Shown: one piece after another, positions 13,461-62,723 of the stretch | Layout: each line of letters starts with the position of its first letter | Numbering within the stretch: position 1 is the first letter of the stretch | IMG/VR virus record: IMGVR_UViG_3300035698_029839 | Coordinates: 1 to 64,000 of that record | Strand: one strand, 5' to 3' | DNA from: a virus | Length of the DNA: 64,000 bases | Notes under the pieces: model-generated | The model's database searches: none | Told to the model about the DNA's origin: nothing | Seen by the model: the letters and a program-made list of their open reading frames with translations, nothing else | Program-made: the position numbers and the translations under genes

Positions 13461-14579
13461 ATGAAATTAGTTATTCTTTGTAATTTTGGTCCTTATTCTT
13501 CAGTAGGGGGTTCAGAGGCAGTTATCTCGGCTATTGCAGAAAGGCTAATATGTCCGCCATATAATTATGAAATTGATATATATGCTCATAATTATAAGAA
13601 AGATTCTATACATAAAGGTATAAATTTATTTCCATGTCCTAAGGGTGATAATATAGTCCCCATAATAGCTCAAAACGAGCACATAATGGTTTATAGCGAC
13701 TCTCAATGGAACTTTGACTCATTATTAGGGTCTATTGGTAAAACTGCCCAGAAAGCCTCTATTTGCCTTGTAGGGGCATATCATCTTCAATCTCATCCAC
13801 AATCTCTACAATTACTAAAAGAAAATATAAGTAGATTTAATCTTATCACCCATTCCCAAATAACTTGTGATTATAAGTTCTGTATTGACAATGATTTACC
13901 TGTTAAGGTGGTTCCAAATGGAGTAAATTTGTCCGAATTTGAGAAAAGTGAAATAGATTTTAGACAAAAGTACAATATTAAAGAAAAATATATGATTTTG
14001 AATGTGGGAAATTTTTTTTATGGAAAGGGTTTTGAGCTTATTCCCAAAATAGCTCAAAAATTATCAGAGGATTTAGACGATTTTGTTATTGTTCAATGTT
14101 CTAATACTATCAGATATCCTTACGATAAAATATTTTTTGAAAGAACAAAAAAACAAAGTAAGGGATTAAATGTAAGATTTTTAAGGGATCTTCCTAGAGT
14201 AGATATCGTAGCGGCATTCAAAGAATCTGATATGTTCTTATTCCCTAGTAAAAAGGAGATTGCTCCTATTGTTATTCTTGAATGTAGGGCCGCTAAATTA
14301 CCTTATATCTCAATGAAGGTAGGAAATATGATGGAGAATCCAGGTGGAGTTCCAGTCAATTATCAGAAAGTAGATAATAAGGGGTATGTATTAATTGAAG
14401 ATAGTATTATCAGACATTTTTCAGCGGGTATCTTTAATAGTTTAATACCTATGAAAATAAATGGCAAGAAGAATACAAGGGCATTTAAAAATATCCTTAT
14501 TTCTGATGGACAAGAAGATATAGAGTCTATTGATTGGGATCAGATTGTCCCTTTATATGATGAGGTATTTAAAGGGTGA
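13461..14579 (+). CDS. Family 4-like glycosyltransferase
   Basis: The 372-residue protein has the N-terminal GT-B signature (ILCNFGPYSSVGGSEAVISAI), the linker VVPNGVNLSEF and the C-terminal donor domain start YMILNVGNFFYGKGFELIPKIA. The E-x7-E-like region is KEIAPIVILECRAAKLPYIS near residue 275. It is a retaining GT-B enzyme by family knowledge; donor and acceptor are unknown. It follows a family 2 enzyme, and the next gene starts inside its stop codon (GTGA). Confidence 0.85.
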   Translation: MKLVILCNFGPYSSVGGSEAVISAIAERLICPPYNYEIDIYAHNYKKDSIHKGINLFPCPKGDNIVPIIAQNEHIMVYSDSQWNFDSLLGSIGKTAQKASICLVGAYHLQSHPQSLQLLKENISRFNLITHSQITCDYKFCIDNDLPVKVVPNGVNLSEFEKSEIDFRQKYNIKEKYMILNVGNFFYGKGFELIPKIAQKLSEDLDDFVIVQCSNTIRYPYDKIFFERTKKQSKGLNVRFLRDLPRVDIVAAFKESDMFLFPSKKEIAPIVILECRAAKLPYISMKVGNMMENPGGVPVNYQKVDNKGYVLIEDSIIRHFSAGIFNSLIPMKINGKKNTRAFKNILISDGQEDIESIDWDQIVPLYDEVFKG

Positions 14580-14845
14580 GATATAAAGTAGGAGATAAAG
14601 TTAAAATAAAGACTTGGGGTGAAACGAAAAAACTTGTTAATTTTAATTCTTTTATGGAAAAAGAAGTTGAGGAATTGAAAACTAATAGAATATTAACTAT
14701 TAAAGTAGTAAATGAAGGTTGTTATTATGCTATGAAAGAATCACGGTGGTTTTGGAATGATGATATGATTAAATGTTTAGCAAAAGACTTTAAAAAAGAA
14801 ATATACGAACCTATTAATGATAGATTTGAGATATTAGATTTATGA
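14576..14845 (+). CDS. Small SH3/KOW-like protein with C-terminal ILDL tag (89 aa)
   Basis: GTG start overlapping the previous stop. The N-terminus RYKVGDKVKIKTW is an SH3/KOW-like beta-barrel start, and SRWFWNDDMI is a conserved later strand. It is a paralogue of 33322-33642, which has KYKVGDIVKIKTW and ATWVWTDEMI. Both end PI-x-DRFEILDL, the recurring C-terminal tag of this phage. Function unknown. It lies between glycosyltransferase genes. Confidence 0.75.
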   Translation: MRYKVGDKVKIKTWGETKKLVNFNSFMEKEVEELKTNRILTIKVVNEGCYYAMKESRWFWNDDMIKCLAKDFKKEIYEPINDRFEILDL

Positions 14846-15561
14846 GTAATCCATTAGTTAGTGTAATAATGACGGTTTATAACTGTGAAAAGTTTATAGA
14901 GCAATCTTTAGATTCTGTTCTTAATCAAACTTTTAAAGATTTTGAGATTATCATATATAATGATGCTTCTACAGATAGAACGATGGATATGGTGATAGAT
15001 ATTATGAAAGATAATAAAAGTAATGTTCTTATTTCTGGTGGTAAAAATGTAGGTTGTGGAGAGGGAAGGAATAGAGCAATTGGGGAGGCAAGAGGAAAGT
15101 ATCTTGTAATTCAAGATGCTGATGATATAAGTTTGCAATGTCGATTGGAAAAAGAAGTTAATTTTTTAGAAAATAATGATGATATATTTTGTATTGGTGG
15201 ATGGGCCAATAAAACTGATCAAGATGGACATTTCATAGAGTTGATGAGCTATCCTCGTTCTACTCATGAAGAAATTTATAATGATATAATGGTTAAGAAG
15301 AATAACCCTATTATTGATCCATCATGTATGTATAGGAGAGATTTATTTAATAAACTTGGTGGTTATGATGGACGTTGGAGATTAGTCCCTGATTTTAATT
15401 TATGGGTAAGAGCAGCTCAAGAAGGTTTTAAATTTTCAAATTTCCAGGAGGTGTTGGTTTATTATAGGCAACACCCTAATAGTGTGACAAATAAGAGCGA
15501 GATGGCTGTTGTTAGAGAACATTTTAAAATGTGTAAAGAACTTCTTAAATTAAGAAAATAA
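14842..15561 (+). CDS. Family 2 glycosyltransferase
   Basis: A canonical GT2 enzyme of 239 residues: VSVIMTVYNCEKFIEQSLDSV at the N-terminus, then IIIYNDASTDRT, GCGEGRNRAI, and the metal-binding VIQDADDIS. WRLVPDFNLWVRAAQEG supplies the catalytic acidic residue region. The ATG overlaps the stop of the tagged gene before it (ATGA), so translation is coupled. Third glycosyltransferase in the cluster; sugar and acceptor unknown. Confidence 0.88.
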   Translation: MSNPLVSVIMTVYNCEKFIEQSLDSVLNQTFKDFEIIIYNDASTDRTMDMVIDIMKDNKSNVLISGGKNVGCGEGRNRAIGEARGKYLVIQDADDISLQCRLEKEVNFLENNDDIFCIGGWANKTDQDGHFIELMSYPRSTHEEIYNDIMVKKNNPIIDPSCMYRRDLFNKLGGYDGRWRLVPDFNLWVRAAQEGFKFSNFQEVLVYYRQHPNSVTNKSEMAVVREHFKMCKELLKLRK

Positions 15562-15565
15562 AGGT

Positions 15566-15594
15566 TTTTAAACAAGATCTTTGAATAATATAAA
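15566..15594 (+). promoter_or_regulatory. Promoter, TTTTAA-N17-TATAAA
   Basis: TTTTAA 15566-15571 and TATAAA 15589-15594, 17-base spacer, preceded by GG. It shares the string GGTTTTTAAAC with the promoter at 55542. It drives the gene at 15623. Confidence 0.6.
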
Positions 15595-15622
15595 ATGAAA
15601 TACTTTGATATGGAGATGTGTT

Positions 15623-26877: not shown

Positions 26878-27285
26878 ATGATTAATTTTACAGATATAAC
26901 TATTAATGAAGCGGATGGGGTTTTTGCAGATGTAGAGGAAATAATGTTGGCAGAAGTTCCTTCTGTTAAAAATTGGGTTATAAGAAGTTATGTTACAATT
27001 ATTAGTGATAGCGGAGAAGGGACAATGGAGATACAATGTCATGGAGATGGTAATGTTTACATAATAGATTACGACCCGTCAATAGGAGATTTATTTTATA
27101 ATCCTGATATACAAGAGATTTCTATATGGGCTCAGGAAAAAGGGTGGAAAATACCTCAACCTCATCCTGATTTAATTAAATCGAATAAAGAGTTTTGGAA
27201 ATATTTTTATGATACTCTTGTGATAGACTCTGAATATCTCGATAAGTTATATGGGGGTAGACCACAAATAGATGGGAGTAAATAG
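26878..27285 (+). CDS. Hypothetical protein (135 aa)
   Basis: I use the ATG at 26878, which leaves a short gap after the primase gene; a TTG at 26851 would overlap it. The protein looks like a small alpha/beta fold (WVIRSYVTIISDSGEGTMEI, NVYIIDYDPSIGD). No family recognised. GTG of the next gene follows its stop directly. Confidence 0.55.
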   Translation: MINFTDITINEADGVFADVEEIMLAEVPSVKNWVIRSYVTIISDSGEGTMEIQCHGDGNVYIIDYDPSIGDLFYNPDIQEISIWAQEKGWKIPQPHPDLIKSNKEFWKYFYDTLVIDSEYLDKLYGGRPQIDGSK

Positions 27286-27515
27286 TGAATGCAGAAAAAG
27301 CTATAAAAGAAGGATATAAATGTTTTTGTTTACAATGTAACAAGGCTTATAAAAAAACTCCAAGTTATTGGGAGGAAAAAGCCAGTTGCACTGGAGCAGA
27401 GATAGAAATGTGTAGTTGCGGTTCTGATTTGTTTATGTCTTTTGAGCAGTATGTTAAACAACACGAAAAAGAAGATGGGCCTATAGAGAATCGTCTGGAT
27501 ATTTTGGATTTATGA
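27285..27515 (+). CDS. Zinc-ribbon protein with C-terminal ILDL tag (76 aa)
   Basis: GTG start after GGGAG. Cys residues CFCLQC and MCSCGSD form a small zinc ribbon. The protein ends with GPIENRLDILDL, the phage-wide C-terminal tag preceded by an acidic linker (HEKEDG). The next gene overlaps the stop (ATGA). Function unknown. Confidence 0.7.
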   Translation: MNAEKAIKEGYKCFCLQCNKAYKKTPSYWEEKASCTGAEIEMCSCGSDLFMSFEQYVKQHEKEDGPIENRLDILDL

Positions 27516-28314: not shown

Positions 28315-28529
28315 TGGAGTACAAGTGTCAAACAGTTGATATGCAATGTATGATTGTTGGGGCAAAAGGATTTTTTACTCCTATTTGTGAAAGTTGCACA
28401 ACGTTGGATTGCACTAATCCCATTGAAAAAACTAAAGTGAGTATATTGGGAGTTGTGAAAGAAATAAAAGTTTATAATAGAGGAAATTCTCCAAGACTTG
28501 TAGTACAATGTGAAGGATATATGCCATAA
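28314..28529 (+). CDS. Small Cys-containing hypothetical protein (71 aa)
   Basis: 71 residues with several Cys (YKCQTVDMQC, ICESCTTLDC), possibly metal-binding. It overlaps both neighbours by one base (TAATG). Function unknown. Confidence 0.6.
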   Translation: MEYKCQTVDMQCMIVGAKGFFTPICESCTTLDCTNPIEKTKVSILGVVKEIKVYNRGNSPRLVVQCEGYMP

Positions 28530-29320
28530 TGTTTAGATCTATTAATTTATCAGAAGCTTATTTAAAAGATTATGCTCTTCGTAAAGATGCTAAAAAGCAG
28601 TACGGATCGACTATAAAGAATATTAAAAAAATTAAAGATATAGCTCTTAAAATCATTAAATATCCAGAGCATAAAGAAGCTTATGATTATGTTGATGATT
28701 TATTTCCAAGAGTCAAGGTGAAGGAAGTTTCTGTTTATAAGGTTGCCGCGAAGGATCTGGCAAAAATGGGATATGCTGGAGCAGAAGGTTTTTACGATAG
28801 TATTTCTAAGGCAATAGTTGTTTGCGGGGCTCGTAAACTTACCCAACCAGAAAATAAAAGATATCGCATATTAGCTAAAATTGAAAGAGATGAAGTTATT
28901 GTTCATGAGTTGTGTCATTATTGTTATTTTTTTGAAGGAAAAAGATCAATAAGTAGCGAGATGAGAGAAGAATTCGCTTATGGATGGTCAATTGGATATT
29001 TAAGGCAAAAAGGTTATACTGATGAACAAATAGTGAAATATAATTTTTTACCATATCTGGTAAGTCTTTCATATGATGAAGCTATTAAAAATATATTAGT
29101 ATGGAATAATATAAGTACTTATGAGTATAATAATCATTCTAAATATCAGAGAAAAGAATTTCAAAAAACTTTCTCTGGTAAAGTTTTTGACAGAGCTAAA
29201 GAAATAGCTATGGAAAAAGGGTTCAAATTAATTGATCTTTATTCTAAAAAGATAGAAGAAGGTACGGGTTTATCTGATGAGGAAGAGGATTTAGACCGAT
29301 TTGATTATTTGGATTTGTAA
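28529..29320 (+). CDS. Putative zinc metallopeptidase (HExxH) with C-terminal tag
   Basis: 263 residues. The motif VIVHELCHYCYFF near residue 129 is a canonical HExxH zinc site, and the downstream EMREEFAYGWSIGYL offers the third ligand or helper Glu, as in small phage or bacterial minigluzincins. The substrate is unknown. It ends DRFDYLDL, a variant of the ILDL tag with Tyr for Ile. It starts at the stop of the preceding gene. Confidence 0.7.
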   Translation: MFRSINLSEAYLKDYALRKDAKKQYGSTIKNIKKIKDIALKIIKYPEHKEAYDYVDDLFPRVKVKEVSVYKVAAKDLAKMGYAGAEGFYDSISKAIVVCGARKLTQPENKRYRILAKIERDEVIVHELCHYCYFFEGKRSISSEMREEFAYGWSIGYLRQKGYTDEQIVKYNFLPYLVSLSYDEAIKNILVWNNISTYEYNNHSKYQRKEFQKTFSGKVFDRAKEIAMEKGFKLIDLYSKKIEEGTGLSDEEEDLDRFDYLDL

Positions 29321-29373: not shown

Positions 29374-29883
29374 ATGAGTTATGAAAAAAAAATAAATGAT
29401 TATGTAATTAAATTTAAAGATGAACAAAGTTATTTAGAAGCAAAATTAGAAAATTTAAAATTACACCCAGATATACCTTTTCTTGGTTTTATCCAAAATG
29501 AGATGTATAACAGGGAGAAGTGCGAAGTTGAGAGCATAGAAGAAGTTAATGATGGTACTCAATATATTTCTTCTGTTCAAATATTATCGGGAGGTTCTAT
29601 ATCTGAAAACGGGGATTTTGGCGATATTATCGTCGGCAGCGAGAATCTAACCCTTTCTGGTAGTTTAGATTACACCATCAATAATGGGAATAGTCTTTAT
29701 ATAAGTACTGCTGGGGATAATGGTGCTAACTCTAATTATAATTCTTTTATAGGTTGGTCAGCAACTGATTCTCACAATGGTAATAGTAATGTTCTTATTG
29801 GCGGGTACCCTAGTGATCAATCAGAAGAGTTAAAAGAGCCAGAAGATCCAATAGAGAATAGGTTCGATATTTTAGATTTATAA
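29374..29883 (+). CDS. Hypothetical protein with Gly/Ser/Asn-rich beta region and ILDL tag (169 aa)
   Basis: A helical, charged N-terminus is followed by a repetitive Gly/Ser/Asn-rich stretch (SGGSISENGDFGDIIVGSEN, LTLSGSLDYTINNGNSLYIS) that looks like a beta-solenoid or trimeric-fibre piece. The end is EDPIENRFDILDL. Whether it is structural or regulatory is unclear. A 7-base inverted repeat AGACGAT/ATCGTCT lies just upstream (about 29329-29358). Confidence 0.65.
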   Translation: MSYEKKINDYVIKFKDEQSYLEAKLENLKLHPDIPFLGFIQNEMYNREKCEVESIEEVNDGTQYISSVQILSGGSISENGDFGDIIVGSENLTLSGSLDYTINNGNSLYISTAGDNGANSNYNSFIGWSATDSHNGNSNVLIGGYPSDQSEELKEPEDPIENRFDILDL

Positions 29884-30225: not shown

Positions 30226-30585
30226 ATGAGATTCATACGAAAAGAATTTATAGTCACAACTATATTTAACAAAGAATTAACTGAGAAAGATGAAGTTCTA
30301 ATTGTTTTTAATAATCTGCTAAATGAGAGAATAGAATTCTCTATGATTATGAAAAAATACATGCCTCATCAACAAGATTATTTTAGCATAAGTTTTGAGA
30401 GGGTGAGAGTAAAAAAGATATATGAAAATGATACTGTTGATTTATTAGCTTTCAAAAAAGGAGTTAAAACAAGTATGAAAGCTGTGCCCTTTGATGATGT
30501 TATAGAAATAAATGCGACTACTAAAAAACATAAAATTTTAGATATAAATTCGGACATTGATAGATTCGATATTTTAGATTTGTAA
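30226..30585 (+). CDS. Hypothetical protein with ILDL tag (119 aa)
   Basis: 119 residues of mostly beta character (FIVTTIFNKELTEKDEVLIV, FSISFERVRVKKIYENDTV) ending SDIDRFDILDL. First gene behind the promoter at 30191, probably translated from a leaderless message. Function unknown. Confidence 0.7.
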   Translation: MRFIRKEFIVTTIFNKELTEKDEVLIVFNNLLNERIEFSMIMKKYMPHQQDYFSISFERVRVKKIYENDTVDLLAFKKGVKTSMKAVPFDDVIEINATTKKHKILDINSDIDRFDILDL

Positions 30586-31122: not shown

Positions 31123-32532
31123 ATGATTTTTGATAATAAAGATTATGTTCCGCTGCATTGTCATTCCGAATTTAGTCAATTTGATGGTTTGGCAAATATA
31201 AATGATCTAGCAATGCAAGCTAGGAAAATGGGTTTCCCAGCATGTGCTCTCACTGACCATGGTAATATTATGGGTTGGATTAAATGGCTTCAAGCATGTA
31301 GAGCCACAAAAGATAAGAAAGGTAAAGATATTCCTTATGCTCCTATTAAACCTATTCTAGGGTGTGAATTTTATTTATCTCGAAAGATGGATATAGGACA
31401 AAATCAAGAAAAAAGAGATACCGAAGTCATAAAAAAGAATCAACCTGATGGACGCAGGGGAAATAGACATTTAAATCTTTATGCTATGAATTTTGAAGGT
31501 TATAAGAATATATGCAATATGTCTCAAAGGTCTTATACGGAGGGATTTTATTACGATCCTAGAATTGATATCGATATGTTATCAAAGCATTCCAAGGGTG
31601 TTATGTGTGGTTCTGCATGTCTTTCTAGTGTTATTAATGCTAATCTAATGTATGGACGTTACAACCAAGCTAGAGAGACTTGTGGTATTTTAAACGAGAT
31701 CTTTGATGGTAATTTCTTTTTAGAGATGATGTACCATGGGATTAGTGAAGAAAAAGAAATTATTCCTTTAATTTTAAAATTGTCAACAGAATTAAATATT
31801 CCTGTTGTTTGTACCAATGATAGTCATTATATCCATAAGGACCAAGGAGCATCTCAAGAAGTTTTATTATGTATGTCTCAACAAAGATGTTTGAAAGATC
31901 CTAAAAGATTAAAATTCGGTCATATGGAATTTTATTTTAAGAGCGCGGAAGAAATGGCAGTTATGTTTGGACATGTTCCTCATGCTTTAACTAATTCTGT
32001 TGTTCTTGCTGAAAGAATAGATACTAAAGATATAGAGAAAAATCTTTTTGGAGGTATGAGACTACCTAAGTTTGATATACCTAAAAAATATAAAAATCCA
32101 TATGATTATATGTCTATTTTAGCATGGGAAGGAATGGAGAGAATTGGATGGGACAAAAGTAAAGAACATGTAGATACTTTAAAAATGGAATTAGAAGATG
32201 TGAAAGTTGCATATGAAAATAATAATTATGATTTCTCTACATATTTTTTAATAGTTAGAGATTATATATTAGAAGCTAAAAAGATGGGAACTTTTGTTGG
32301 TTGCGGCCGTGGTTCTGGGTATGCTAGTGTATTATTAAGATGTCTTGAAATTACTTATGGGGTAGATCCATTAAAGTACGGTCTTCTATGGGAAAGATTT
32401 TTGGGATTTGACTCCAAAAGGTTTATTAAAGAATCAGATTTCGGATTTGAAGAAGACTTGGTGCAACAAGCAGCAGATAGAGATTTGGAAGGAGATTTAG
32501 AGGAAGATTTAGGAGGCATTGATAGATATTGA
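31123..32532 (+). CDS. dnaE: DNA polymerase III alpha (DnaE), fragment 1: PHP and start of palm
   Basis: 469 residues. The PHP domain is complete (VPLHCHSEFSQFDGLANI, ALTDHGNIMGW, VVCTNDSHYIH). The palm begins normally with FVGCGRGSGYASVLLR and VDPLKYGLLWERFLGFDS, then stops before the catalytic P-D-I-D-x-D-F motif. That motif is in the separate ORF at 33679. The last 35 residues replace the expected sequence with a strongly acidic tail (EEDLVQQAADRDLEGDLEED). No intein motif is visible at this break. Four small genes lie between the two fragments. Confidence 0.9.
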   Translation: MIFDNKDYVPLHCHSEFSQFDGLANINDLAMQARKMGFPACALTDHGNIMGWIKWLQACRATKDKKGKDIPYAPIKPILGCEFYLSRKMDIGQNQEKRDTEVIKKNQPDGRRGNRHLNLYAMNFEGYKNICNMSQRSYTEGFYYDPRIDIDMLSKHSKGVMCGSACLSSVINANLMYGRYNQARETCGILNEIFDGNFFLEMMYHGISEEKEIIPLILKLSTELNIPVVCTNDSHYIHKDQGASQEVLLCMSQQRCLKDPKRLKFGHMEFYFKSAEEMAVMFGHVPHALTNSVVLAERIDTKDIEKNLFGGMRLPKFDIPKKYKNPYDYMSILAWEGMERIGWDKSKEHVDTLKMELEDVKVAYENNNYDFSTYFLIVRDYILEAKKMGTFVGCGRGSGYASVLLRCLEITYGVDPLKYGLLWERFLGFDSKRFIKESDFGFEEDLVQQAADRDLEGDLEEDLGGIDRY

Positions 32533-32756
32533 TAGATACAGATATTAATTGGAATGAACTAACAGAGCAAGAGAGAGAGAAAATACTTCAAAAAATATTA
32601 TCAACAGAAGAAGGTCTAACTGCAATGGCTATGAGTATGGCTCCCTCGCAGAAGGGATATAAGGAAGCACAAGAAATATATATTAAAAAATATGGAAGAA
32701 TAAAAAAAGAAATACTTGTTCCTATAAATGATAGATTTGAAATATTGGATTTATGA
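32529..32756 (+). CDS. Small protein with ILDL tag inside the dnaE break (75 aa)
   Basis: TTG start overlapping the stop of dnaE fragment 1, with AGGAGG upstream. Helical (ELTEQEREKILQKILSTEEG), acidic to basic, ending VPINDRFEILDL. First of four consecutive tagged genes. Function unknown. Confidence 0.65.
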   Translation: MIDTDINWNELTEQEREKILQKILSTEEGLTAMAMSMAPSQKGYKEAQEIYIKKYGRIKKEILVPINDRFEILDL

Positions 32757-32771: not shown

Positions 32772-33065
32772 ATGGCTTTATCTGATTGGTCTGAAGAAAA
32801 CAAAGAAATAATTAAAAATGCTTTAAAAACGACAGAAGGAAGAGAAGGATTTAAAGAAGCTTTTTATGATACTGTAAATATTTCACTAGAAGATTATTTA
32901 ACGCAAACTTCTGAATCTTTAGGAACAGATGATTTAGAAAAGCATGTGCATAAAATAGTAGAAGATGTATCAGACATATTAGAAATAATTTATGAAAAAG
33001 ATGAAATAAAAGAAACAAAAATAGATAATCCTATAACTACCAGATTGGATATATTAGATTTATGA
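32772..33065 (+). CDS. Small protein with ILDL tag inside the dnaE break (97 aa)
   Basis: Acidic, helical, 97 residues (LSDWSEENKEIIKNALKTTE, LEKHVHKIVEDVSDILEIIY), ending NPITTRLDILDL. GAAGGAAG upstream. Its N-terminal repeat-like helix resembles the previous gene (TTEGREGFKEA against STEEGLTAMA), so they may be distant paralogues. Function unknown. Confidence 0.65.
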   Translation: MALSDWSEENKEIIKNALKTTEGREGFKEAFYDTVNISLEDYLTQTSESLGTDDLEKHVHKIVEDVSDILEIIYEKDEIKETKIDNPITTRLDILDL

Positions 33066-33319
33066 TTAAGGAAGAATTTAAACATGTTAAACTTTTTCCA
33101 ATGCAGGAAAATTTAATTGAAGAGATGGCAAAGGTTCAACCAATTGCAGACGAGTTAGAAGCACTAGGATATATCTATGCTCCGTACATTCCTTTGCAAA
33201 TATCTCTTACTCCTACTCTTAATATTTCTGATTTAATTACTCCCAAAAAATATACTATTAGGAAATATACAGATATTTATTCAGATATTGATAATAGATT
33301 TGAAATATTGGACTTATAA
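33062..33319 (+). CDS. Small protein with ILDL tag inside the dnaE break (85 aa)
   Basis: 85 residues starting in an ATGA overlap with the previous gene. It contains a hydrophobic, Pro-rich middle (GYIYAPYIPLQISLTPTLNI) and ends DIDNRFEILDL. No family recognised. Confidence 0.6.
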   Translation: MIKEEFKHVKLFPMQENLIEEMAKVQPIADELEALGYIYAPYIPLQISLTPTLNISDLITPKKYTIRKYTDIYSDIDNRFEILDL

Positions 33320-33321: not shown

Positions 33322-33642
33322 ATGAAATACAAAGTTGGCGACATAGTAAAAATAAAAACATGGGAAGCTATGGGGAGAGAGTTTATTTTTACGACTAGTG
33401 GGAATATATCAATACATAAGACTTCTCAGTATTCAACAGGGATGGAAGATCTTTTAAAAGAGATAGATACTAATAGGGTAGTAACAATATTAAAAGTGAT
33501 AGATAATGTTGTTCCCCCCAGAATACCTCATTACAAGATAGAAGAATTTGATGCTACATGGGTTTGGACAGATGAGATGATAGAGTGTAGTGCAGTGCCA
33601 GCAGTGCCGATACAAGACAGATTTGAGATTTTAGATTTATAG
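33322..33642 (+). CDS. SH3/KOW-like protein with ILDL tag (106 aa)
   Basis: KYKVGDIVKIKTW and ATWVWTDEMIECS make it a paralogue of 14576-14845. Both end PI-x-DRFEILDL. The fold suggests a small beta-barrel that could bind nucleic acid or protein. It is followed by a promoter for dnaE fragment 2. Confidence 0.7.
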   Translation: MKYKVGDIVKIKTWEAMGREFIFTTSGNISIHKTSQYSTGMEDLLKEIDTNRVVTILKVIDNVVPPRIPHYKIEEFDATWVWTDEMIECSAVPAVPIQDRFEILDL

Positions 33643-33678: not shown

Positions 33679-34722
33679 ATGGCAGAAATCGAAACAAGAA
33701 AAAAAGAGATAATAGAATACGTTACTAAAAAACATTCTAAGAGCGACAAGTTATCTAAAATTATTTCAAAAGTTAAAGAAGAACTTGATGTTTTGGGATC
33801 AACTGATGGCTTAGAAGCAAAGAATAATTTAGAAGTATTTTATAATATATGGAAAAGTCATAAGGGCAAAGTAGGTCATAAGAATGATATAAATAGCTGG
33901 ACTGCTTTCTTTTTAGGCTTAACCAAAGTCAAACCTGATAAGGATTTTCTTCCTACCAGACGCGCTTTTGCAAGAGCTGGATTCCCTGATATTGATACTG
34001 ATTTTGATTATGAGAGCAGGGATAGTGTTTATACTTATATTATTGATAAATATGGTAGGGACAATGTGGGAAATATAGGAACTCATGGTTTGTTAAGATT
34101 TAAATCATGTGTCACTCGAGTTACAAAAGCCTTAGATTTAGCTAATGCTTATCATAAGGGGGACAGTCTTTTTGTTAGTGAGAATGCTGCAAAAGTGACT
34201 GAAATTTTATCACCTTTTCCCAAAAAAGGATTATTAAAAGTTACAGATGAAGATGGAGAAAGTCATCTTATAAAAACTTTTGAAGATGCATATGCGCATT
34301 GCTCTGATTTTAAGCACTATGTAGATAAGTATAAAGATAGTGGTTTTAAAAAATACATGGAACAAATTGAAGGCACTTTTGCTAATTTTGGATGTTTAGC
34401 AAAGGATACTCCTATTCTGACCGATGGAGGATGGAAAAGAATTGACCAGCTTTCTACCAAATTTTCTATAGCTTATATTAATAAGGATGGGGAAATTTCT
34501 TATACTGATAGATATAAAGCATTTAAAACAGGTAGAAAAAAAGTATATAGATTAAAACTTAAGGACGGTAGATTTATAGATGTGACTGATGAGCATCTTA
34601 TTTTTACAGATAAAGGATGTGTTAAATTTGAAGAAATTAGAAAAAATAAAGAAAATTATAAAATTTATGGAATAAAAAAGGATTCTTTGAAGAATGATAG
34701 GATTACTATACCAGCAGTGTGA
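33679..34722 (+). CDS. dnaE: DnaE fragment 2 (palm active site) fused to split-intein N half
   Basis: 347 residues. A basic, helical N-terminal extension (EIETRKKEIIEYVTKKHSK) precedes the palm core with the catalytic PDIDTDF (103-109) and YIIDKYGRDNVGNIGTHG. The DnaE part ends at GTFANFG, residue 238, in the loop before the conserved HAAGVV. From Cys239 the sequence is intein: CLAKDTPILTDGGWKRIDQL, then LKDGRFIDVTDEHLIF (block B, T-x-x-H-like). The remaining polymerase and the intein C half are in the ORF at 35838, so trans-splicing is needed to build the active site. Confidence 0.9.
   Translation: MAEIETRKKEIIEYVTKKHSKSDKLSKIISKVKEELDVLGSTDGLEAKNNLEVFYNIWKSHKGKVGHKNDINSWTAFFLGLTKVKPDKDFLPTRRAFARAGFPDIDTDFDYESRDSVYTYIIDKYGRDNVGNIGTHGLLRFKSCVTRVTKALDLANAYHKGDSLFVSENAAKVTEILSPFPKKGLLKVTDEDGESHLIKTFEDAYAHCSDFKHYVDKYKDSGFKKYMEQIEGTFANFGCLAKDTPILTDGGWKRIDQLSTKFSIAYINKDGEISYTDRYKAFKTGRKKVYRLKLKDGRFIDVTDEHLIFTDKGCVKFEEIRKNKENYKIYGIKKDSLKNDRITIPAV
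34393..34719 (+). other. Split intein, N-terminal half (109 aa)
   Basis: Begins with the nucleophile Cys (FG|CLAKDTPI) and contains blocks A and B (DVTDEHLIF). It stops at TGA 34720-34722 without a C-terminal block. Its partner is at 35838-35978. Confidence 0.9.
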
Positions 34723-34743
34723 TTTCTTACAGGAGGTATAGTA

Positions 34744-35604
34744 ATGAATAAATGTAAAATTTGCGGTAAAGAATTTAATAAAAGAATTTCTTTAGAGAGA
34801 CATATAACTAGTTCTTATGGTAAAGAAAAGAAAAAAAAGCATTGTCCTATTTTAGTTTATAAGTGGAAGTATGAGAAAAATAATAGATTTTCTAAAAAAA
34901 GTTTGATTAAGATGTATATAAAAGATAAAAAATCTACGCCTATGATGAAAGAAGAGTTGCAAATTAATAAAAAAACTCTTTTAGATACTATGCATTTTTA
35001 TAAAATTAAAATGAGAAGTATATCGGAAGCTTCTAAAAACCAGATTGAAAGGGATGGCTTGTGGAATAAAGGGCTTACTAAGAGGGACCATCCATCTATT
35101 ATGTCTTATGCTAAGCAAAGAAAAGGGAGAAATAATCCTTATTATACTGCTCCTAATTTTGAAAAAAGAAAGAAAAGAAATTTGGAGATATTAAAAAAAA
35201 CTTGGAAAAGTTTTAATGGAAAAAGGAATCCTAAATCCACAGAAAGAAGAATGGCTAAGATTTTAGACCAAAATAATATATATTATATTAGAAATTTTTC
35301 ATTAAATTATTATGAAAATGGGAAAACCAAATGGAGATTATTTGATTTTTTTATTGAGGGAAAATTATTAGTAGAAATGAATGGTAATTATTTTCATGCT
35401 AATCCTAAAATATATAAAGCAGATGATGAAATAGTTATAGCTAAAAGCAAGAGAAAAGCGAAAGATATATGGGAATATGATGTTAAAAAAATGAAGCTGG
35501 GCAAAGATAGTGGCTATAAAACATTAGTTTTGTGGGAAGCGGATTTTGTAGAGATGACAGATAAAGAAGCAATAAAAGAAATTAGGAGTTTAATAGATGA
35601 TTAG
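34744..35604 (+). CDS. Vsr-like (EDxHD family) homing endonuclease between split-intein halves
   Basis: 286 residues with a perfect AGGAGGT upstream. The N-terminus has a C2H2-like finger (CKICGKEFNKRISLERHI), and the middle has NUMOD-like helices. The C-terminal nuclease matches the Vsr-fold I-Bth0305I family: Glu in PKSTERRMAKIL, Asp in WRLFDFFIEG, VEMNGNYFHANP with the His, and IWEYDVKKMKLGKDSGYKTLVLWE. Known fractured-gene loci carry exactly this type of nuclease between split-intein genes. It would spread the interrupted dnaE to intact alleles. Confidence 0.85.
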   Translation: MNKCKICGKEFNKRISLERHITSSYGKEKKKKHCPILVYKWKYEKNNRFSKKSLIKMYIKDKKSTPMMKEELQINKKTLLDTMHFYKIKMRSISEASKNQIERDGLWNKGLTKRDHPSIMSYAKQRKGRNNPYYTAPNFEKRKKRNLEILKKTWKSFNGKRNPKSTERRMAKILDQNNIYYIRNFSLNYYENGKTKWRLFDFFIEGKLLVEMNGNYFHANPKIYKADDEIVIAKSKRKAKDIWEYDVKKMKLGKDSGYKTLVLWEADFVEMTDKEAIKEIRSLIDD

Positions 35605-35845
35605 CGAAGAAAATGAATTGCCTGAAAAATTTAAAGAAGTAATGCATCGTGCTTTTAAAGATTGTGACGAATTTTATAATGAAATTAGGGATATTCCTAT
35701 TAGTAAAGTAAAAGATTTAACAAATATAATAAAACTTTTTAAATCAAATATCTCAAATGAAAATGAGCAGAGTTATATTATAGACGGAAAAAGGGTTTTC
35801 AACCTGGCCGATATTAAAGAGGTTCAAAAAAAATATAATGAGTAA
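35597..35845 (+). CDS. Small hypothetical protein between intein halves (82 aa)
   Basis: 82 residues, acidic and helical (LPEKFKEVMHRAFKDCDEF), overlapping the endonuclease stop and the next start by 8 bases each. No family recognised. Its tight packing suggests it belongs to the mobile cassette. Confidence 0.55.
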   Translation: MISEENELPEKFKEVMHRAFKDCDEFYNEIRDIPISKVKDLTNIIKLFKSNISNENEQSYIIDGKRVFNLADIKEVQKKYNE

Positions 35846-35978
35846 TTTAAATTTGTTTAATATAGAATCAATTGAAGAATTAGATTTTGAAGATGTTTAT
35901 GATATTTCAATAGATGAAGATTGTGTTTTTTTTCAAAACGAGCATAATTATATAGCAAATAATATAGTTGTTCATAAT
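35838..35978 (+). other. Split intein, C-terminal half (47 aa)
   Basis: Contains block F (EDVYDISIDEDCVFFQNEHNY) and block G ending VVHN with the usual His-Asn, followed by Ser as the +1 extein residue. ATG at 35838 overlaps the previous gene. Confidence 0.9.
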
Positions 35979-37685
35979 TCTCATGCTGCGGGTGTGGTCG
36001 TATCGGATGTCCCTCTTGATCAAATAGCTCCATTAAGAAATGCTAGGAAGGGAATGCTGGCTACTCAATTTCCTAGTGAAGATTTAGAACTTCTCGGTCT
36101 TATCAAATTTGATGTTCTGGCTATAGCCACTTTATCAGTTATTAAAAAAGCAGTAGAAATGATAAAAGAATATTGGGGGATAGAGATAGATGTAGAAAAT
36201 CTTCCTATGAATGATGAATCTACATTTGAAATTTATCGCAAGGGGAATTTGGGAGGAGTTTTTCAATGCGAAAAACATGGTATGCAAAAAACTATGAGAG
36301 ATATAGGGGTAGATCGTTTCGAAGATGTTATAGCTGGACTAGCACTACATCGTCCAGGCCCTATGGATAGTATTCCTGAGTATTGTGCCAGGAAACACAG
36401 GGAAAAAGATGTTGATTATTTTCATCCCTCAATTGAGCCATATGTAAAGCCTTATTTAGAAAGTACTTACGGTGTCCTTTGCTTCCAAGAACAGGTTATG
36501 CAAATTTGTAATAGTCTTGCTGGTTTCACAATTACTGATGGATATATTATGATAAAAGCGATTGGTAAGAAAAAAGAGCACTTGATGAAAAGATTCGAAG
36601 AACAATTTATTTCTGGTTGTGTAGAAAAAAAAGTTCCCCAACATGTTGCTCAGCAGTATTGGACTAAGTTTATTACTCCATTCTCATCTTATGGGTTTAA
36701 TTTGTGTCTTGATGGAAGCATGAGTGTTAAAAATAAAAAAGATGGAGAAATTTATGAAATTGAAGAATTAGAAAAAGAATTTAAAAAAGGAAATAAATTA
36801 GAAATTGTATTGGATAGTTATAAGGGAGGGCTTATTGTGGAAGATATAGTTGTTGATATATTTTGCACAGGTAAAAAAGATATTTATGAAATAGAATTGG
36901 ACAATGGGTCTATTTTAAAATGCACTTTGGATCATAAGTTTATATGTGATGATGGCAACGAGCATACAGTAAAAAAGATTATGGAAGAAGATTTAAATAT
37001 TTTATATTTTCAAGAAAATATGAAAAAGTGCAAAATAAAATCAGTTAAATATCTAGAGAAAAAAAAAGCATTTAATTTAACCATGAAATCAGGACAGCAT
37101 AATTATGCTCTTTATGATATGAATAACAAATGTAGTGTTATAAGTCGTAATTCTCATAGTGCATGCTATGGTTATAACTCTTATACAACAGCATATTTAA
37201 AAGCTAATTATCCTGATGAATTTATATGTTCTTTATTAGATGTGACGATAAGTGGTTCTCAAGGAGAGAGATATGATAAGGTTGCTGCATTTGAGAGAGA
37301 ATTTAAAAAGAAGATGAATATTAAATTTCTTTCCAGAGATATAAATAAATCAAAAGTATTGTTTACTATTGAGAAAAGAAAAGATCTTTCAGAAGGCGTG
37401 AAAAAAACAGAAATACGCCCTAGTCTTTTATGTAAGGGGCTTTTGAAAAAATCAGCTATGAATATAGAAGAAAATCAACCATATGATGATATGAGAGATT
37501 TTGTTAGAAAAACTAATTCGTCATTAATTGATATAAGGGTAGTGGAGGCTTTGACTACAGGTGGATATTTCGGGAAAAAGTATATGGAAGATCCATCTGT
37601 TATTGTGAAAGATTTTGTGATGATTAGAGAAGATATGAAAAAAACTGCTAAAAAAGGAGTAGAAACTGTCGATTTATTTGCATAA
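35838..37685 (+). CDS. dnaE: Split-intein C half fused to DnaE fragment 3, with a second intein
   Basis: 615 residues. Residues 1-47 are the intein C half, ending NYIANNIVVHN before Ser48. The DnaE body resumes at SHAAGVVVSDVPLDQIAPL and includes the third catalytic Asp (LGLIKFDVLAI) and the fingers (GVFQCEKHGMQKTMRDI, LALHRPGPMDSIPEY). A second intein fills residues 290-438 inside the conserved YGFN-SHSACYGY motif. The C-terminus is short compared with host DnaE and ends VETVDLFA, which resembles the canonical QLDLF-type clamp-binding motif. The polymerase is active only after trans- and cis-splicing. Confidence 0.9.
   Translation: MSNLNLFNIESIEELDFEDVYDISIDEDCVFFQNEHNYIANNIVVHNSHAAGVVVSDVPLDQIAPLRNARKGMLATQFPSEDLELLGLIKFDVLAIATLSVIKKAVEMIKEYWGIEIDVENLPMNDESTFEIYRKGNLGGVFQCEKHGMQKTMRDIGVDRFEDVIAGLALHRPGPMDSIPEYCARKHREKDVDYFHPSIEPYVKPYLESTYGVLCFQEQVMQICNSLAGFTITDGYIMIKAIGKKKEHLMKRFEEQFISGCVEKKVPQHVAQQYWTKFITPFSSYGFNLCLDGSMSVKNKKDGEIYEIEELEKEFKKGNKLEIVLDSYKGGLIVEDIVVDIFCTGKKDIYEIELDNGSILKCTLDHKFICDDGNEHTVKKIMEEDLNILYFQENMKKCKIKSVKYLEKKKAFNLTMKSGQHNYALYDMNNKCSVISRNSHSACYGYNSYTTAYLKANYPDEFICSLLDVTISGSQGERYDKVAAFEREFKKKMNIKFLSRDINKSKVLFTIEKRKDLSEGVKKTEIRPSLLCKGLLKKSAMNIEENQPYDDMRDFVRKTNSSLIDIRVVEALTTGGYFGKKYMEDPSVIVKDFVMIREDMKKTAKKGVETVDLFA
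36705..37151 (+). other. Mini-intein in DnaE (149 aa)
   Basis: Cys1 at 36705 (GFNL|CLDGSMSVKNKK), block B around SILKCTLDHKFICDDG, block F AFNLTMKSGQHNYALYD, and the end VISRN before SHSACYG. No endonuclease domain. The penultimate residue is Arg instead of the usual His. It sits three residues downstream of the site used by the cyanobacterial DnaE split intein. Confidence 0.85.
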
Positions 37686-50503: not shown

Positions 50504-50735
50504 AGTTATACATATAATTTCTAATCATCTATCAATAGAATTACAAAAAGAAGATTTAAATTCTAATTTTATTGTGGATTTAGGTGCGGACAGTTTGGAC
50601 TTGATTGGAGTTGTAATGTTGGTAGAAGAAGAATTTAATTTGTCTCCTATTCCTGATAAAGAAGCAGAAAATATTTTAACTACAAAATTATTAATAAATT
50701 ATATTTATACAAAATTGAATAATGAGTCTAGCTAA
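50478..50735 (+). CDS. acpP: Acyl carrier protein
   Basis: 85 residues. Helix I ENKVIHIISNHLSIE, then NSNFIVDLGADSLDLIGVVM with the Ser of the D-S-L motif that receives 4'-phosphopantetheine, then LVEEEFNLSPIPDKEAENIL. This is the canonical ACP fold and length. It has a GTG start. It would need a host phosphopantetheinyl transferase. Why a phage carries ACP is open: lipid or surface modification, or an adaptor role. Confidence 0.88.
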   Translation: MDRQEIENKVIHIISNHLSIELQKEDLNSNFIVDLGADSLDLIGVVMLVEEEFNLSPIPDKEAENILTTKLLINYIYTKLNNESS

Positions 50736-51123
50736 ATATATTCCATTAAGAGATGCCATACTGAAATATGGTGGCAAAGATATGCCAGTTATAGCCATAA
50801 AGAAGTTTTGTGTAGATATAGATAGACTAACATCTTCTTATGAGGTGTGGTTAGATGTTAATGATGCTTCTGGGATAGTAGAGGCATCTGATAATGTTGT
50901 AGTTAATGCTATTAGTTTAGTTCCTACAGATATGGACGAACCTGCATTTTTCGTTATTGATGGAATATCTGTTTCTTGTTCTATAAAACACTATGTTTAT
51001 CATTCTATTAAACATGCTTATTTAGTTAGGGTAGAGTTTCTTTTAAGTAGAGATGATGTTAAACCATATATGATCGAGGAAGATAATAAAGATCAAAATC
51101 GTTTTGATATTTTGGACTTATGA
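50722..51123 (+). CDS. Hypothetical protein with ILDL tag (133 aa)
   Basis: 133 residues, beta-rich (YEVWLDVNDASGIVEASDNV, HAYLVRVEFLLSRDDV), ending DQNRFDILDL. It overlaps the ACP gene and starts a run of four tagged or near-tagged genes. Function unknown. Confidence 0.65.
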   Translation: MSLAKYIPLRDAILKYGGKDMPVIAIKKFCVDIDRLTSSYEVWLDVNDASGIVEASDNVVVNAISLVPTDMDEPAFFVIDGISVSCSIKHYVYHSIKHAYLVRVEFLLSRDDVKPYMIEEDNKDQNRFDILDL

Positions 51124-51452
51124 GCGATAAAGTTAAACAAATTACTATTGATGACTCAGTAACAGATAAGGAGTCTATCTATAAAATATTAGCACAATGT
51201 GCACATGATGAAGGAATCTCAATTTTTAAAGTAGCAGATAGTTCTATCGATAATATCCAAAAAATGGATAAAGACTGTCGAAGATATCGACAAAGAATTA
51301 GCGAACTCGCTGGAAAAGAAAGCAAATATAGAAAAGAAGTATTAGAACTAGAGAGAAAAAAGATAAAACTTGAGAAAGGACTTAAAGAGTTAGAAAAAGA
51401 AATAAATTTTCGAGTTATGAATGATAGTCGTTCTAATTGGTTGGATTTATAA
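51120..51452 (+). CDS. Coiled-coil protein with divergent tag (110 aa)
   Basis: 110 residues; the second half is a coiled coil (YRQRISELAGKESKYRKEVL). It ends DSRSNWLDL, which keeps the final L-D-L of the tag but has N-W where others have R-F-x-I. ATGA overlap with the previous gene. Function unknown. Confidence 0.65.
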   Translation: MSDKVKQITIDDSVTDKESIYKILAQCAHDEGISIFKVADSSIDNIQKMDKDCRRYRQRISELAGKESKYRKEVLELERKKIKLEKGLKELEKEINFRVMNDSRSNWLDL

Positions 51453-51922
51453 TGGACTTATTACAAGTAATAATACCACAACCTCCAGATTTTCGTATCT
51501 TGTTGGAAGATAATGAAGAAATAAGAATTATAAGATATGAACAAATAAATATGAATTTTTGTGATAGGGTAGTATACAAAGATGGTAAAAAGAAAACAGT
51601 TCAATCTCCACTTATTACTTATTTAGTCGAATTAGATAATCAATCAAAAGAGCAATTAAAGAAATTATTTTCAGATTCTTTTGAATCTAATGATAGCACG
51701 ATACAAACAAGATCTGCTAGAATCAAAGTGGGTAGAGATGGATATGTATATAATGTAGAAGTATCAGCTAGACCAGATATGAATGATTTTGTTTATTCTT
51801 CCAAAATATTTCAAGAAAGAGTTAAAATATGTTTAAGGCTAGAAGAGACGAGTATATCTTTATTTGATAGAGCGAATGAGGCTTATGAAAAATATGAACG
51901 TTTTGAGATTTTGGATTTATAA
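51452..51922 (+). CDS. Hypothetical protein with ILDL tag (156 aa)
   Basis: I start at ATG 51452, which overlaps the previous stop (TAATG). Beta-strand-rich (FRILLEDNEEIRIIRYEQIN, ARIKVGRDGYVYNVEVSARP) and ends EKYERFEILDL. No family recognised. Confidence 0.65.
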   Translation: MDLLQVIIPQPPDFRILLEDNEEIRIIRYEQINMNFCDRVVYKDGKKKTVQSPLITYLVELDNQSKEQLKKLFSDSFESNDSTIQTRSARIKVGRDGYVYNVEVSARPDMNDFVYSSKIFQERVKICLRLEETSISLFDRANEAYEKYERFEILDL

Positions 51923-52374
51923 TGGCTGTGATTGGTCCTATGATGTTTGGTGGTAAGTTTTCTATTTATAGCAATGGCGCTGAGGTTCTAAAAAATTTAG
52001 AAATAGTGGGATGGCGGGTTGAAGATAGAATTTCATCATACGATCATCCTCTATATACTTTTACAGCATCGTGCGGTCATGATAGCGTTCATTATTTTAA
52101 CGTATTGGTTAGGGAAGGGGTTGTTCGTTCTGATGGGGTTTCAATAATAAATTATGAAGGATTAGAGTATCCAGTGTATATAGATTCTTATGAGATGATT
52201 CAACACAATGCTGAGGTTACAAGCATGTCTGGTCATCATGGTTATATTCCAGGTAGTATGGAAGTTATTATTTGTGGCCATATTGATAGTAGAGATATAG
52301 GTGAGGTCGATACTATTATAGAAAAGAAAAAAGAAGTAGCGATAAAAGATCGCTTTGAGATTTTAGATTTATAA
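51922..52374 (+). CDS. Hypothetical protein with ILDL tag (150 aa)
   Basis: 150 residues with an alpha/beta core (KFSIYSNGAEVLKNLEIVGW, HPLYTFTASCGHDSVHYFNV) and a linker ending VAIKDRFEILDL. TAATG overlap with the previous gene. Function unknown. Confidence 0.65.
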   Translation: MAVIGPMMFGGKFSIYSNGAEVLKNLEIVGWRVEDRISSYDHPLYTFTASCGHDSVHYFNVLVREGVVRSDGVSIINYEGLEYPVYIDSYEMIQHNAEVTSMSGHHGYIPGSMEVIICGHIDSRDIGEVDTIIEKKKEVAIKDRFEILDL

Positions 52375-61400: not shown

Positions 61401-62149
61401 AAAATAGAAAAAAGATAATTGGAAGTAGAAATAGGAAAAAAAGAAGAGATAAAATTAAAAGAGATATAGTTGAAAAAAATATATTTTTAAAAATTAAAGA
61501 ATACAGACAGTTTAAAAGATTAAAAGAAGAAATTTTAAAAGATAAAGAGTGCTCAAAGTGTGGGTTGTGTTGTAAAAGTTATAGAATAAGACTTACACAG
61601 GAAGATTTAGATAATGAACCTCAATTAATAGAAAATAGTATTTTATTAACAGAAGACATCATAAAAAAATATAAACTAAGTTGTAAGAAAAAGCACATAA
61701 GAGTTATAAAGACTGTTAGTGAGGAAAATAAGAGATGTATTTTTTATGATGAAAATATAGGATGTAAAATACATTTAACAAAACCCGCTGAATGTGTAGA
61801 ATATGTCCCATCTTTGTCTCACTGCAAAAGCACTGAACTAAAAGATTGTTTTAACTTAGCTTCTTATTATAATATGCAGCAGAAAATTTTTATAAAAAGT
61901 GTAAAAAATTGCAGCGCAGAAGAAAAAATAGAGAGGACAAGGAAACTTTTAGAAGCTCTTATTATACCTTTTATAGCAAAGTTTTATAAAAAAGGGGATA
62001 ATATTCAAGCGGAACCAGAGAATGAAAAATTGATACCTTCTTTTATAAAAAGGTGTTTAGATCTAGATGATAGTTATAAGTTTATAAAAGATTTACCCAT
62101 GGTAAAGAGTCATAATGATAAAATTAATACAGATGGTTTTGAGGATTAG
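61397..62149 (+). CDS. YkgJ-type metal-cluster protein (250 aa)
   Basis: 250 residues. After a very basic N-terminus, CSKCGLCCKSYRIRLTQEDL and RCIFYDENIGCKIHLTKPAE-C form the YkgJ/FliB-like Cys set. It is a distant relative of the intein-bearing protein at 44264. It lies exactly between two near-identical 30-base repeats, so it was probably inserted between the genes now at 60618 and 62175. Confidence 0.8.
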   Translation: MKNRKKIIGSRNRKKRRDKIKRDIVEKNIFLKIKEYRQFKRLKEEILKDKECSKCGLCCKSYRIRLTQEDLDNEPQLIENSILLTEDIIKKYKLSCKKKHIRVIKTVSEENKRCIFYDENIGCKIHLTKPAECVEYVPSLSHCKSTELKDCFNLASYYNMQQKIFIKSVKNCSAEEKIERTRKLLEALIIPFIAKFYKKGDNIQAEPENEKLIPSFIKRCLDLDDSYKFIKDLPMVKSHNDKINTDGFED

Positions 62150-62178
62150 TTAAAGGGGGGCAGATATTTAAAATATGA
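62149..62178 (+). repeat. 30-base direct repeat, copy 2
   Basis: Matches 61371-61400 at 27 of 30 positions. It now provides the G-rich ribosome binding site and ATG of the gene at 62175. Confidence 0.85.
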
Positions 62179-62723
62179 GTAAAAAAGGGCCAGTAATAAA
62201 AAATACTAATAAGAGTCACAATCGTCATGGGAGTAATTGTAACGATAATAGTAGAGTTATAGTTGGCAAATCCCCTGGTGATCATATTCCTTATAGTTGG
62301 TCTGTTCAAAAGTCTGTAGAGCATTATATAACTAAATATGAGTTGAAATGTTCTCTTTTACAGTTTCCTAGTAGAGCACCGTGGCAGAAGCTTCTTTCTG
62401 ATAACAAAGTATCTAATGAGTTTTTAGATGTTTTTGCTAATAGGGTAATTTGGAGTGCGGTTTGTAGGTATCAAAAATTATCTGAAAAGATTATGGACAA
62501 ACATGCTAATCTATTAGATTGGCCAATAGTTTCTTCTTGCCAGAAAATGTCTAAAAGATTTATTTTTAGGCATAAAAAAGAATTAGATATGGATATTGTT
62601 AGTAATAGATTTTTGATTACTCAAGAGGATTTAGACCAGTGTGAGAAAGAAGAAAAAGAAAGAGTCGCATTTATGGAAGGCGGCGAGGAGATAGAAGATC
62701 GTTTTGATATTTTGGATATGTAG
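62175..62723 (+). CDS. Hypothetical protein with ILDM-type tag (182 aa)
   Basis: 182 residues with a helical body (NEFLDVFANRVIWSAVCRYQ, LSEKIMDKHANLLDWPIVSS) that looks like degenerate leucine- or ankyrin-like repeats of phage proteins. Ends EIEDRFDILDM, the tag with a final Met. Its start is within a 30-base repeat shared with the upstream hydrolase gene. Function unknown. Confidence 0.65.
   Translation: MSKKGPVIKNTNKSHNRHGSNCNDNSRVIVGKSPGDHIPYSWSVQKSVEHYITKYELKCSLLQFPSRAPWQKLLSDNKVSNEFLDVFANRVIWSAVCRYQKLSEKIMDKHANLLDWPIVSSCQKMSKRFIFRHKKELDMDIVSNRFLITQEDLDQCEKEEKERVAFMEGGEEIEDRFDILDM

Follow-up and report, generated by a model that had tools for sequence, protein, structure and literature searches.

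Among the closest described systems, encapsulins load unrelated cargo into an HK97-fold shell by a C-terminal cargo-loading peptide on a flexible tail, with few cargo types per system. The SSB tip is carried by one protein and read by several partners, the ssrA peptide is added during translation and read by one machine, and the capsid targeting sequence (CTS) of phage T4 is removed by the prohead protease. Here we describe a C-terminal peptide, R-[FL]-[DE]-I-L-D-L (the tag), that ends many unrelated small proteins of the virus record IMGVR_UViG_3300035698_029839 (G000; 297,710 bases). Bases 1-64000 of this record form the window, the whole 64,000-base stretch of DNA that was analysed. The nearest precedent is that of the T-even internal proteins, for which sections of the published accounts describe a short terminal peptide as the sole common feature of diverse small proteins whose genes can be found by that peptide (PMC12373910, PMC3012670), with three internal proteins in T4 and at least ten in its relatives (PMC12373910).

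Like the T4 CTS, the tag is a short terminal peptide common to many unrelated small accessory proteins, here 120 of 871 open reading frames (ORFs) in 68 BLAST families. The CTS is N-terminal, whereas 103 of the 120 tags are exactly C-terminal and 17 are followed by 1-16 residues, with an N-terminal echo in four proteins. The scale differs as well, with 25-31 strict tags per phage of the type described here (type A) and tags on up to 60% of ORFs in the sampled stretches of phages with a second type (type B). No sequence relation between the CTS and the tags was found, and packaging, known for the T4 internal proteins, is a proposal for the tagged ones. Encapsulin peptides are, as far as we are aware, likewise unrelated to the tags in sequence, and the likeness lies in a C-terminal flexible-tail peptide on unrelated cargo. 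Unlike the SSB tip and ssrA, the tag is written into dozens of genes and can be followed by further residues. We know of no described system that matches the tags in sequence, position and scale, and for this reason we regard them as a new kind of system. No report of shared C-terminal tags of this kind was found in the titles and abstracts searched, a coverage that excludes most subscription papers and all preprints and so gives weak evidence of absence. The main text of a paper on huge phages (PMC7162821) contains neither 'C-terminal' nor 'C-terminus'.

The tag was counted in G000 and in related records, of which G003 (350,866 bases) and G001 (547,943 bases) are rich in tags and G002, G004 and G005 are short. 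The strict DNA pattern (R-[FL]-[DE]-x-L-D-[LIMFV]-stop) occurred 25 times on the forward strand of the whole G000 record, never on the reverse strand and never in the reversed-pattern control, and all 25 matches terminate ORFs of at least 50 amino acids. It occurred 26 times in G003, 31 times in G001 and 3, 2 and 1 times in G002, G004 and G005, again with controls of 0. In all, the six records hold 88 matches that include a true stop, and 85 of these close ORFs of 50 amino acids or longer. The 871 ORFs were called mechanically (at least 45 amino acids) in sampled stretches, and the regular expression for the tag was composed after the tags were already known. When each protein was shuffled 200 times, the means were 0.0 exact tags and 0.13 with extensions allowed, against 103 and 120 observed. 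These controls and shuffles rule out a chance origin of the type-A tag. The tagged fraction of ORFs is not a genome-wide value, because the stretches of G001-G005 were mostly picked for holding tags (G000 and bases 24001-90000 of G003 were not); in the nearly complete G000 it was 31 of 472 ORFs. The profile of the type-A tag reads [PE]-I-x-[SND]-R-F-[ED]-I-L-D-[LI]. Away from the C-terminus a looser motif was seen in five cases, four of them N-terminal and RFDLLIFEDA-like, in proteins near tagged genes.

We scanned IMG/VR with a narrower pattern holding 14 fixed bases, which returned 23 stretches; G006 was left out, its match having a Ser codon instead of Arg and being taken as chance. The sequence-only reading of the window had named an equal frequency of the pattern in unrelated AT-rich genomes as a refutation, and in 84,980 prokaryote species the narrower pattern gave just 19 single matches (two in one bin), at a rate that is not comparable with that in the phages. 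Eighteen of the 19 read as motif-ended, 16 of them within stop-to-stop stretches no longer than 40 codons; the two longer cases have 135 codons (a Kuenenia contig) and 256 codons (a Planctomycetota contig). A scan of IMG/VR for the RL variant gave 28 stretches, two in G001 and 26 as single matches on other contigs. The triple K...Y....L in these 26 contigs traced to one similar gene in 20 of them and was discarded as a tag. A scan for the LDI variant gave 12 stretches, with multiple matches confined to G001 and G003. Close relatives of single tagged proteins were sought in IMG/VR and among isolates, and nothing useful was found.

The tagged bodies are not alike. The 68 families among the 120 tagged proteins include 49 singletons; the two largest have 14 members (paralogues arrayed in G001) and 13 members (KOW-like). 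This diversity rules out duplicated bodies as the source of the tag, and the tagged proteins are not mostly recent paralogues, a relationship that the sequence-only reading had named as fatal to its case. Fifteen tagged families extend over two or more phages. Among homologous pairs within the type-A phages, 132 were tagged on both sides (52 KOW-like, 25 from the array and 55 others), 27 were mixed and 252 were untagged. The mixed pairs trace to five untagged ORFs, namely the KOW-like paralogues L089:2506 and L090:9671 of G003 and three ORFs of G001. Loss of the tag from a retained protein, also named as fatal in that reading, occurs in these five homologues. Orthologues keep the tag at 23-57% body identity.

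The codons of the tag bear out the earlier claim of codon variation in part. The invariant Arg is encoded by six codons at roughly genome frequencies across the 120 tags, which argues for selection on the peptide. The Leu codons, however, are skewed, with TTA or TTG in 109/111 and 98/102 cases against 63% genome-wide (G000, G001 and G003), and GAG is over-represented among the tag codons. The 120 tags comprise 106 distinct 21-mers, base conservation ends at the stop codon (103 genes), and a 4-base overlap with the following start is present in 31 of the 120 tagged genes.

To describe the tails, AlphaFold2 models of two window proteins were examined. In the model of the protein at 51437 (pLDDT 69.5) the last 25 residues (137-161) fall below 50, and in that model the tag is thus on a flexible tail. 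The body in this model matched tail-tube and neck proteins of phages at a weak to middling level and PilZ domains nearly as well, with Z up to 6.7. Scores in this range are said to occur by chance, and we claim no fold or function. The model of the protein at 50722 was poor and unusable (pLDDT 38.8). Since 17 of the 120 tags carry trailing residues, a free carboxylate at the tag is probably not essential, provided that the extended forms work, and on the same condition a PDZ ligand or a strict C-degron is disfavoured. The tagged proteins are short, with 2 of 318 longer than 300 amino acids, against 163 of 1056 untagged proteins. Many of their genes lie in small-gene arrays. The array at L094:10257-19110 (G001) holds 14 diverged paralogues of about 120-175 amino acids and looks like an arms-race locus; 12 of the 14 have extended tags, R[AS][DE][IL]LD[LI] plus a short tail.

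Tags of a different sequence were found in other huge phages. A tblastn search with one tagged family reached LR756502.1, a metagenome phage of 642,428 bases in which the strict type-A pattern was absent over the whole length. Around the tblastn match (L180), 33 of 57 ORFs end in the outline R-x3-[LI]-x(1-2)-[LI], typically as R-[DN]-x-K-[LI]-[ND]-x-[LI]-[GL]-I. A screen for enriched C-terminal triples yielded type B, R-[DE]-x-K-[LI]-x-x-[LI]-(GI/L), in LR756502 (642 kb) and LR745206 (635 kb), and type C, R-K-x-x-I-x-x-L, in LR756504 (636 kb). The same screen gave nothing comparable in T4, RB69 or the first 50 kb of LR756501 (735 kb); among named phages the screen for unknown tags covered stretches of phage G, Atu_ph07, T4, RB69 and L338C. 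Scanning IMG/VR for type B returned 59 stretches, including records of 476, 436, 385, 344 and 281 kb. The 46 contigs tabulated (58 of the 59 stretches, L193 omitted) comprised 20 with at least two strict type-B ORFs, 16 with one and 10 with none.

The outline was present at 6.5, 25 and 17% of ORF ends in three type-A phages. Across five type-B records the shares were 29, 20, 51, 56 and 60%, and in the type-C phage the share was 33%; for types B and C these rates are not genome-wide, since the stretches are partial and several were picked by matches. Random internal ends carried the outline in 0-1.8% of cases. The phage controls gave 0/59 (LR756501), 0/78 (LR756500), 1/46 (phage G), 0/37 (Atu_ph07) and 0/40 (T4 and RB69), and bacterial and viral contigs gave 2/146 and 1/265. 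Shuffling gave 1.44 expected type-B ends against 77 observed among 311 ORFs (71 families among the 77), and 0.46 expected type-C ends against 45 among 133. Exact LGI endings of type B occurred in 6 of 22 records and in no type-A or type-C phage, with 0 for the reversed pattern. The type-C pattern occurred 27 times in LR756504 and as single matches in 4 of 21 other records, and its reversed control gave 1-3 matches in six records. Both patterns were absent from phage G, Atu_ph07, phiKZ, XacN1, MaAM05, SCTP-2, 201phi2-1, T4 and the metagenome-assembled genome of Lak-A1, and RaK2 showed one type-C match and no type B.

One protein family links types A and B. Members of the STVFLG..FETMVFGG family end RFDILDL in G003 and RFEILDL in G001, and RNNTLDNLGI in LR756502 and RENKLSDLGL in the IMG/VR record 3300036770_008729. 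Homologous A-B pairs with a tagged type-A member were tagged on both sides in 4 of 4 cases. The sequences thus indicate that the type of tag goes with the phage and not with the protein, a point that rests on a single family because all four pairs come from it. A homologue in Rhizobium phage L338C ends RRHVNLDD, in which R and LD line up with residues of the tag. In that region of L338C the outline was present in 0 of 52 proteins and no triple was strongly enriched; we take this homologue as untagged, its alignment with the tag being a vestige or a coincidence. Separately, six proteins of LR756500 (bases 1-50000, L245) end in or near NAD[DE]FG, an enriched triple, possibly as a further kind of shared ending or as paralogues.

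We favour the reading that the tag is an appended C-terminal docking tag with a lineage-specific phage partner, used for head loading and injection, and give this whole reading a probability of roughly 0.4. Its first layer, a short linear docking motif on the flexible tails of unrelated small accessory proteins with one phage-encoded reader, is very probable. A peptide that serves for docking or sorting and is recognised by a single phage partner had been proposed from the window alone. The docking peptide is well supported because it sits on unrelated bodies, is kept in orthologues and has equivalent but different counterparts in other huge-phage lineages. That tags vary between phage lineages leads us to infer a phage-encoded reader. 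The tag peptide would be recognised by this one partner, and the partner would differ among huge-phage lineages, giving tag types A, B and C on the common outline. The partner may be the prohead interior (capsid or scaffold), and tagged proteins would be packaged with the DNA, injected with it and act to subdue the new host. Head loading is favoured because the tagged proteins are small and varied and are not core replication or tail proteins. The packaging step is the tentative part, and we rate it at slightly worse than an even bet.

Several observations weigh against this reading. No reader was recognised, and no virion proteome or isolate was found for these lineages. Genome searches with capsid, terminase and sheath families gave no head gene, although the searches were few and one of them had no match in any control genome; family-level genome searching also missed the DnaN-like clamp that PF00712 matched. 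The T4 signal is at the other end of the protein. Nineteen of the 318 tagged proteins look membrane-spanning, which is unusual for head cargo (among untagged proteins it is more, 156 of 1056). Many tagged genes lie inside replication-gene blocks, and two tagged proteins weakly match DNA-binding families, L088:17748 a single-strand-binding family (E 0.0016) and L098:3358 a ligase family (E 0.00053). Untagged homologues exist both within type A (the five ORFs above) and in the type-C phage, for two B-tagged proteins. The Leu codons of the tags are skewed to TTR, and CTN is almost never used. Of the ORFs in the window region, 11 of the 14 with a tag and 43 of the 61 without one have a homologue in the sampled G003 stretches. 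Tagged genes are therefore conserved as often as untagged ones and not simply variable genes, and the tagged set is not hypervariable, unlike what T4 would suggest.

The alternative that survives best, though we consider it unlikely, is a hub outside the capsid, in which the tag would hold accessory proteins on some structure that the phage builds in the infected cell, be it a scaffold, a filament or the surface of a compartment, and so concentrate takeover and anti-defence proteins there; a shell or the actin-like protein Volactin are examples. One partner with many clients fits such a hub, the 19 membrane-like clients could anchor it, and a Volactin-family protein (PF25216, E 7e-61) adjoins a tagged gene in G003 (L142:6539 and 6146). 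Import into a replication compartment, however, would predict tags on the polymerase, helicase, primase, clamp and topoisomerase, and those that were read carry none. No compartment protein was recognised, and none was searched for by family.

A degron, by which the tag would mark early accessory proteins for timed removal through one host or phage protease or adaptor, is less likely still. In its favour, the tag is found on small accessory products and not on core replication or tail proteins, and hydrophobic ends are similar to those of bacterial C-degrons. Yet a C-degron has to be exposed, which the 1-16 trailing residues on 17 of the 120 tags would prevent, known C-degrons do not typically have an invariant Arg and acidic positions, and lineage-specific tags of the same outline would require different proteases.

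The sequence-only reading had likened the tag to the clamp-binding tails of T4-type polymerases, and a sliding-clamp-binding tail as in T4 gp43, gp55 and gp33, with the tagged proteins riding the phage clamp, is likewise a short acidic-hydrophobic C-terminal peptide common to unrelated proteins. The lead was a reasonable one: RB69 gp43 does end SLFDMFDF, its FDMFDF aligns position by position with FEILDL, its end LFDMFDF and the T4 gp55 end SLDFLYE-AND resemble RFEILDL and the extended tags, and two tagged proteins weakly match DNA-binding families, as given above. The phage also encodes a DnaN-like clamp (L140:16361-17674; PF00712, E 1.4e-6; phrog_947, E 8.9e-9) and a clamp-loader subunit (PF13177, E 3.4e-37). 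But the phages' own DNA polymerase III (Pol III, by Pfam) ends GVETVDLFA, GVETIDIFG or IESVDMFEDLF in all three relatives, which is [ES]-[TS]-[VI]-D-[LIM]-F and of the clamp type, and D-[LIM]-F is present in 0 of 120 tags. Unlike the T4 and RB69 tails, the tag has an invariant Arg, and the polymerase here has a different, Phe-containing tail. Tags were absent from Pol III, DnaB, primase, clamp, clamp loader, topoisomerase and tail proteins as read, and type-B and type-C tags are even less clamp-like. The clamp motifs of T4 polymerase and its partners are interchangeable according to an excerpt of the published account (PMC2988020), and clamp binding is disfavoured because the Pol III tails here are of another type; we consider it improbable, and the likeness to the T4 tails stands as a resemblance only. 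A nucleotide-level element (a recombination seed, translational-coupling site or mobile sequence) with an incidentally conserved translation is highly improbable, since the Leu skew, the GAG excess and the 4-base overlaps would suit it but the Arg codons, the distinct 21-mers, the halt of conservation at the stop codon and the 85 of 88 strict matches that end ORFs largely reject it, with the TTR skew remaining.

The window holds 14 tagged proteins in 13 BLAST families, the only paralogues being those at 14576 and 33322, and the description of their bodies as unlike was correct. All are on the + strand. The eleven proteins listed as ending R-[FL]-[DE]-ILDL all do so, and RFDYLDL at 29320 and RFDILDM at 62723 are close variants as described. 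The 'divergent' ending RSNWLDL at 51452 is a real variant, because the G003 orthologue ends RANWLDL. The 'weak echo' at 22440 is no tag, since the AAA ATPase that it terminates has the ending SAKDLDL, without Arg, in G003 as well.

The first tagged gene encodes a KOW-like small protein (MRYKVGDKVKIKTW family; KOW by eye) at 14576..14845 (tag NDRFEILDL) with tagged relatives in G001, G002 and G003, and its paralogue is the KOW-like small protein at 33322..33642 (DRFEILDL). A CxxC zinc-ribbon-like protein (by eye) at 27285..27515 ends NRLDILDL, and its G003 orthologue, 67% identical, ends SRMDILDL. The HExxH metallopeptidase-like protein (motif by eye) at 28529..29320 ends DRFDYLDL; one orthologue (81% identity) has the ending DRFDILDL and another (57%) DRFDLLDL, and no relative was found at E 0.01 among 50,697 phage records. 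It is followed by a 169-amino-acid protein at 29374..29883 (NRFDILDL), whose tagged G001 relative aligns over just 48 amino acids (40%), and by a 119-amino-acid protein at 30226..30585 (DRFDILDL), whose tag is retained in G001 (TRWDILDL; 71% identity) and G003 (NRFDILDL).

For the 75-amino-acid protein at 32529..32756 (NDRFEILDL) no homologue was found in the G003 and G001 stretches. The 97-amino-acid protein at 32772..33065 ends TRLDILDL, with a G003 relative (L142:6146) ending NRFKILDL, and the 85-amino-acid protein at 33062..33319 ends NRFEILDL, with relatives ending RFEILDL (G001) and RFEILDI plus six more residues (G003). A block of four tagged genes begins with a 133-amino-acid protein at 50722..51123 (NRFDILDL; G003 orthologue 72% identical, ending TRFDILDL), followed by the 110-amino-acid protein at 51120..51452 with the variant tag RSNWLDL. 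The 161-amino-acid beta-rich protein at 51437..51922 ends ERFEILDL, and its tag is retained with bodies at 59% and 38% identity. The 150-amino-acid protein at 51922..52374 ends DRFEILDL, and with bodies 38% and 23% identical its relatives end RFEILDL and RFEILDF-RP, the latter in G001. The last tagged gene of the window (62175..62723, DRFDILDM) encodes a repeat protein of phrog_3532 with five tagged relatives in G003. The remaining 12 strict matches of G000 lie at 161.9-166.9, 185.7 and 286.7-293 kb.

The gene content around the tags includes bacterial-style replication genes, with Pol III alpha in pieces, a DnaB-like helicase, a DnaG-type zinc ribbon, topoisomerase I and the clamp and clamp loader given above. 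Pol III alpha of the window (33679-37685) is split by intein-like segments and is a single ORF in G003 (L140:2364-5978 listed alongside), and topoisomerase I of the same phage carries an intein with a LAGLIDADG domain. G003 encodes a tail tube (PF18906), a tape measure protein (phrog_794), PhoH and the Volactin-family protein, and the tagged gene L142:6146 (74 amino acids) lies among them. The Volactin-family actin homologue itself occupies L142:6539-7597 in this tail-gene region; the Volactin literature, among the papers listed, is mostly on Haloferax. The tail is probably of the siphovirus type, because the one sheath family searched gave no match. No prohead protease was recognised, and no search aimed at that family was made. 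About 60 kb of G000 (64001-124000; L133, L134 and L135) are dense in glycosyltransferase-, methyltransferase- and NeuB-like and nucleotide-sugar genes (by eye), an unusually large phage glycan-synthesis island in which no tags were seen. In G005 (L102:6600-9223) an N-terminal MK[IFLA]RTGF[VI][SA]NSS[ST] is common to five neighbours with different bodies, one of which is also C-terminally tagged.

The function of hundreds of small genes in huge phages is not known, and the tag gives a first functional handle on them that a simple screen of C-termini can find. In some sampled stretches it marks a third to more than half of ORFs as one pathway. If packaging is proved, the tag would do at the C-terminus what the CTS does in T4. 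If it loads the head, it would list the injected effectors of uncultured phages and provide a modular signal for cargo into very large capsids. A general cargo system with lineage-specific tags, in which tens to perhaps more than 100 accessory proteins per phage are loaded by one reader into an oversized capsid and injected with the genome, and in which a newly arrived gene joins the set once it gains the tag of that phage, is doubtful though conceivable; if true, the tag alone would reveal a phage's entire injected arsenal from sequence. Should the tag instead prove to be a degron or a hub signal, it would be an organising principle of huge-phage infection.

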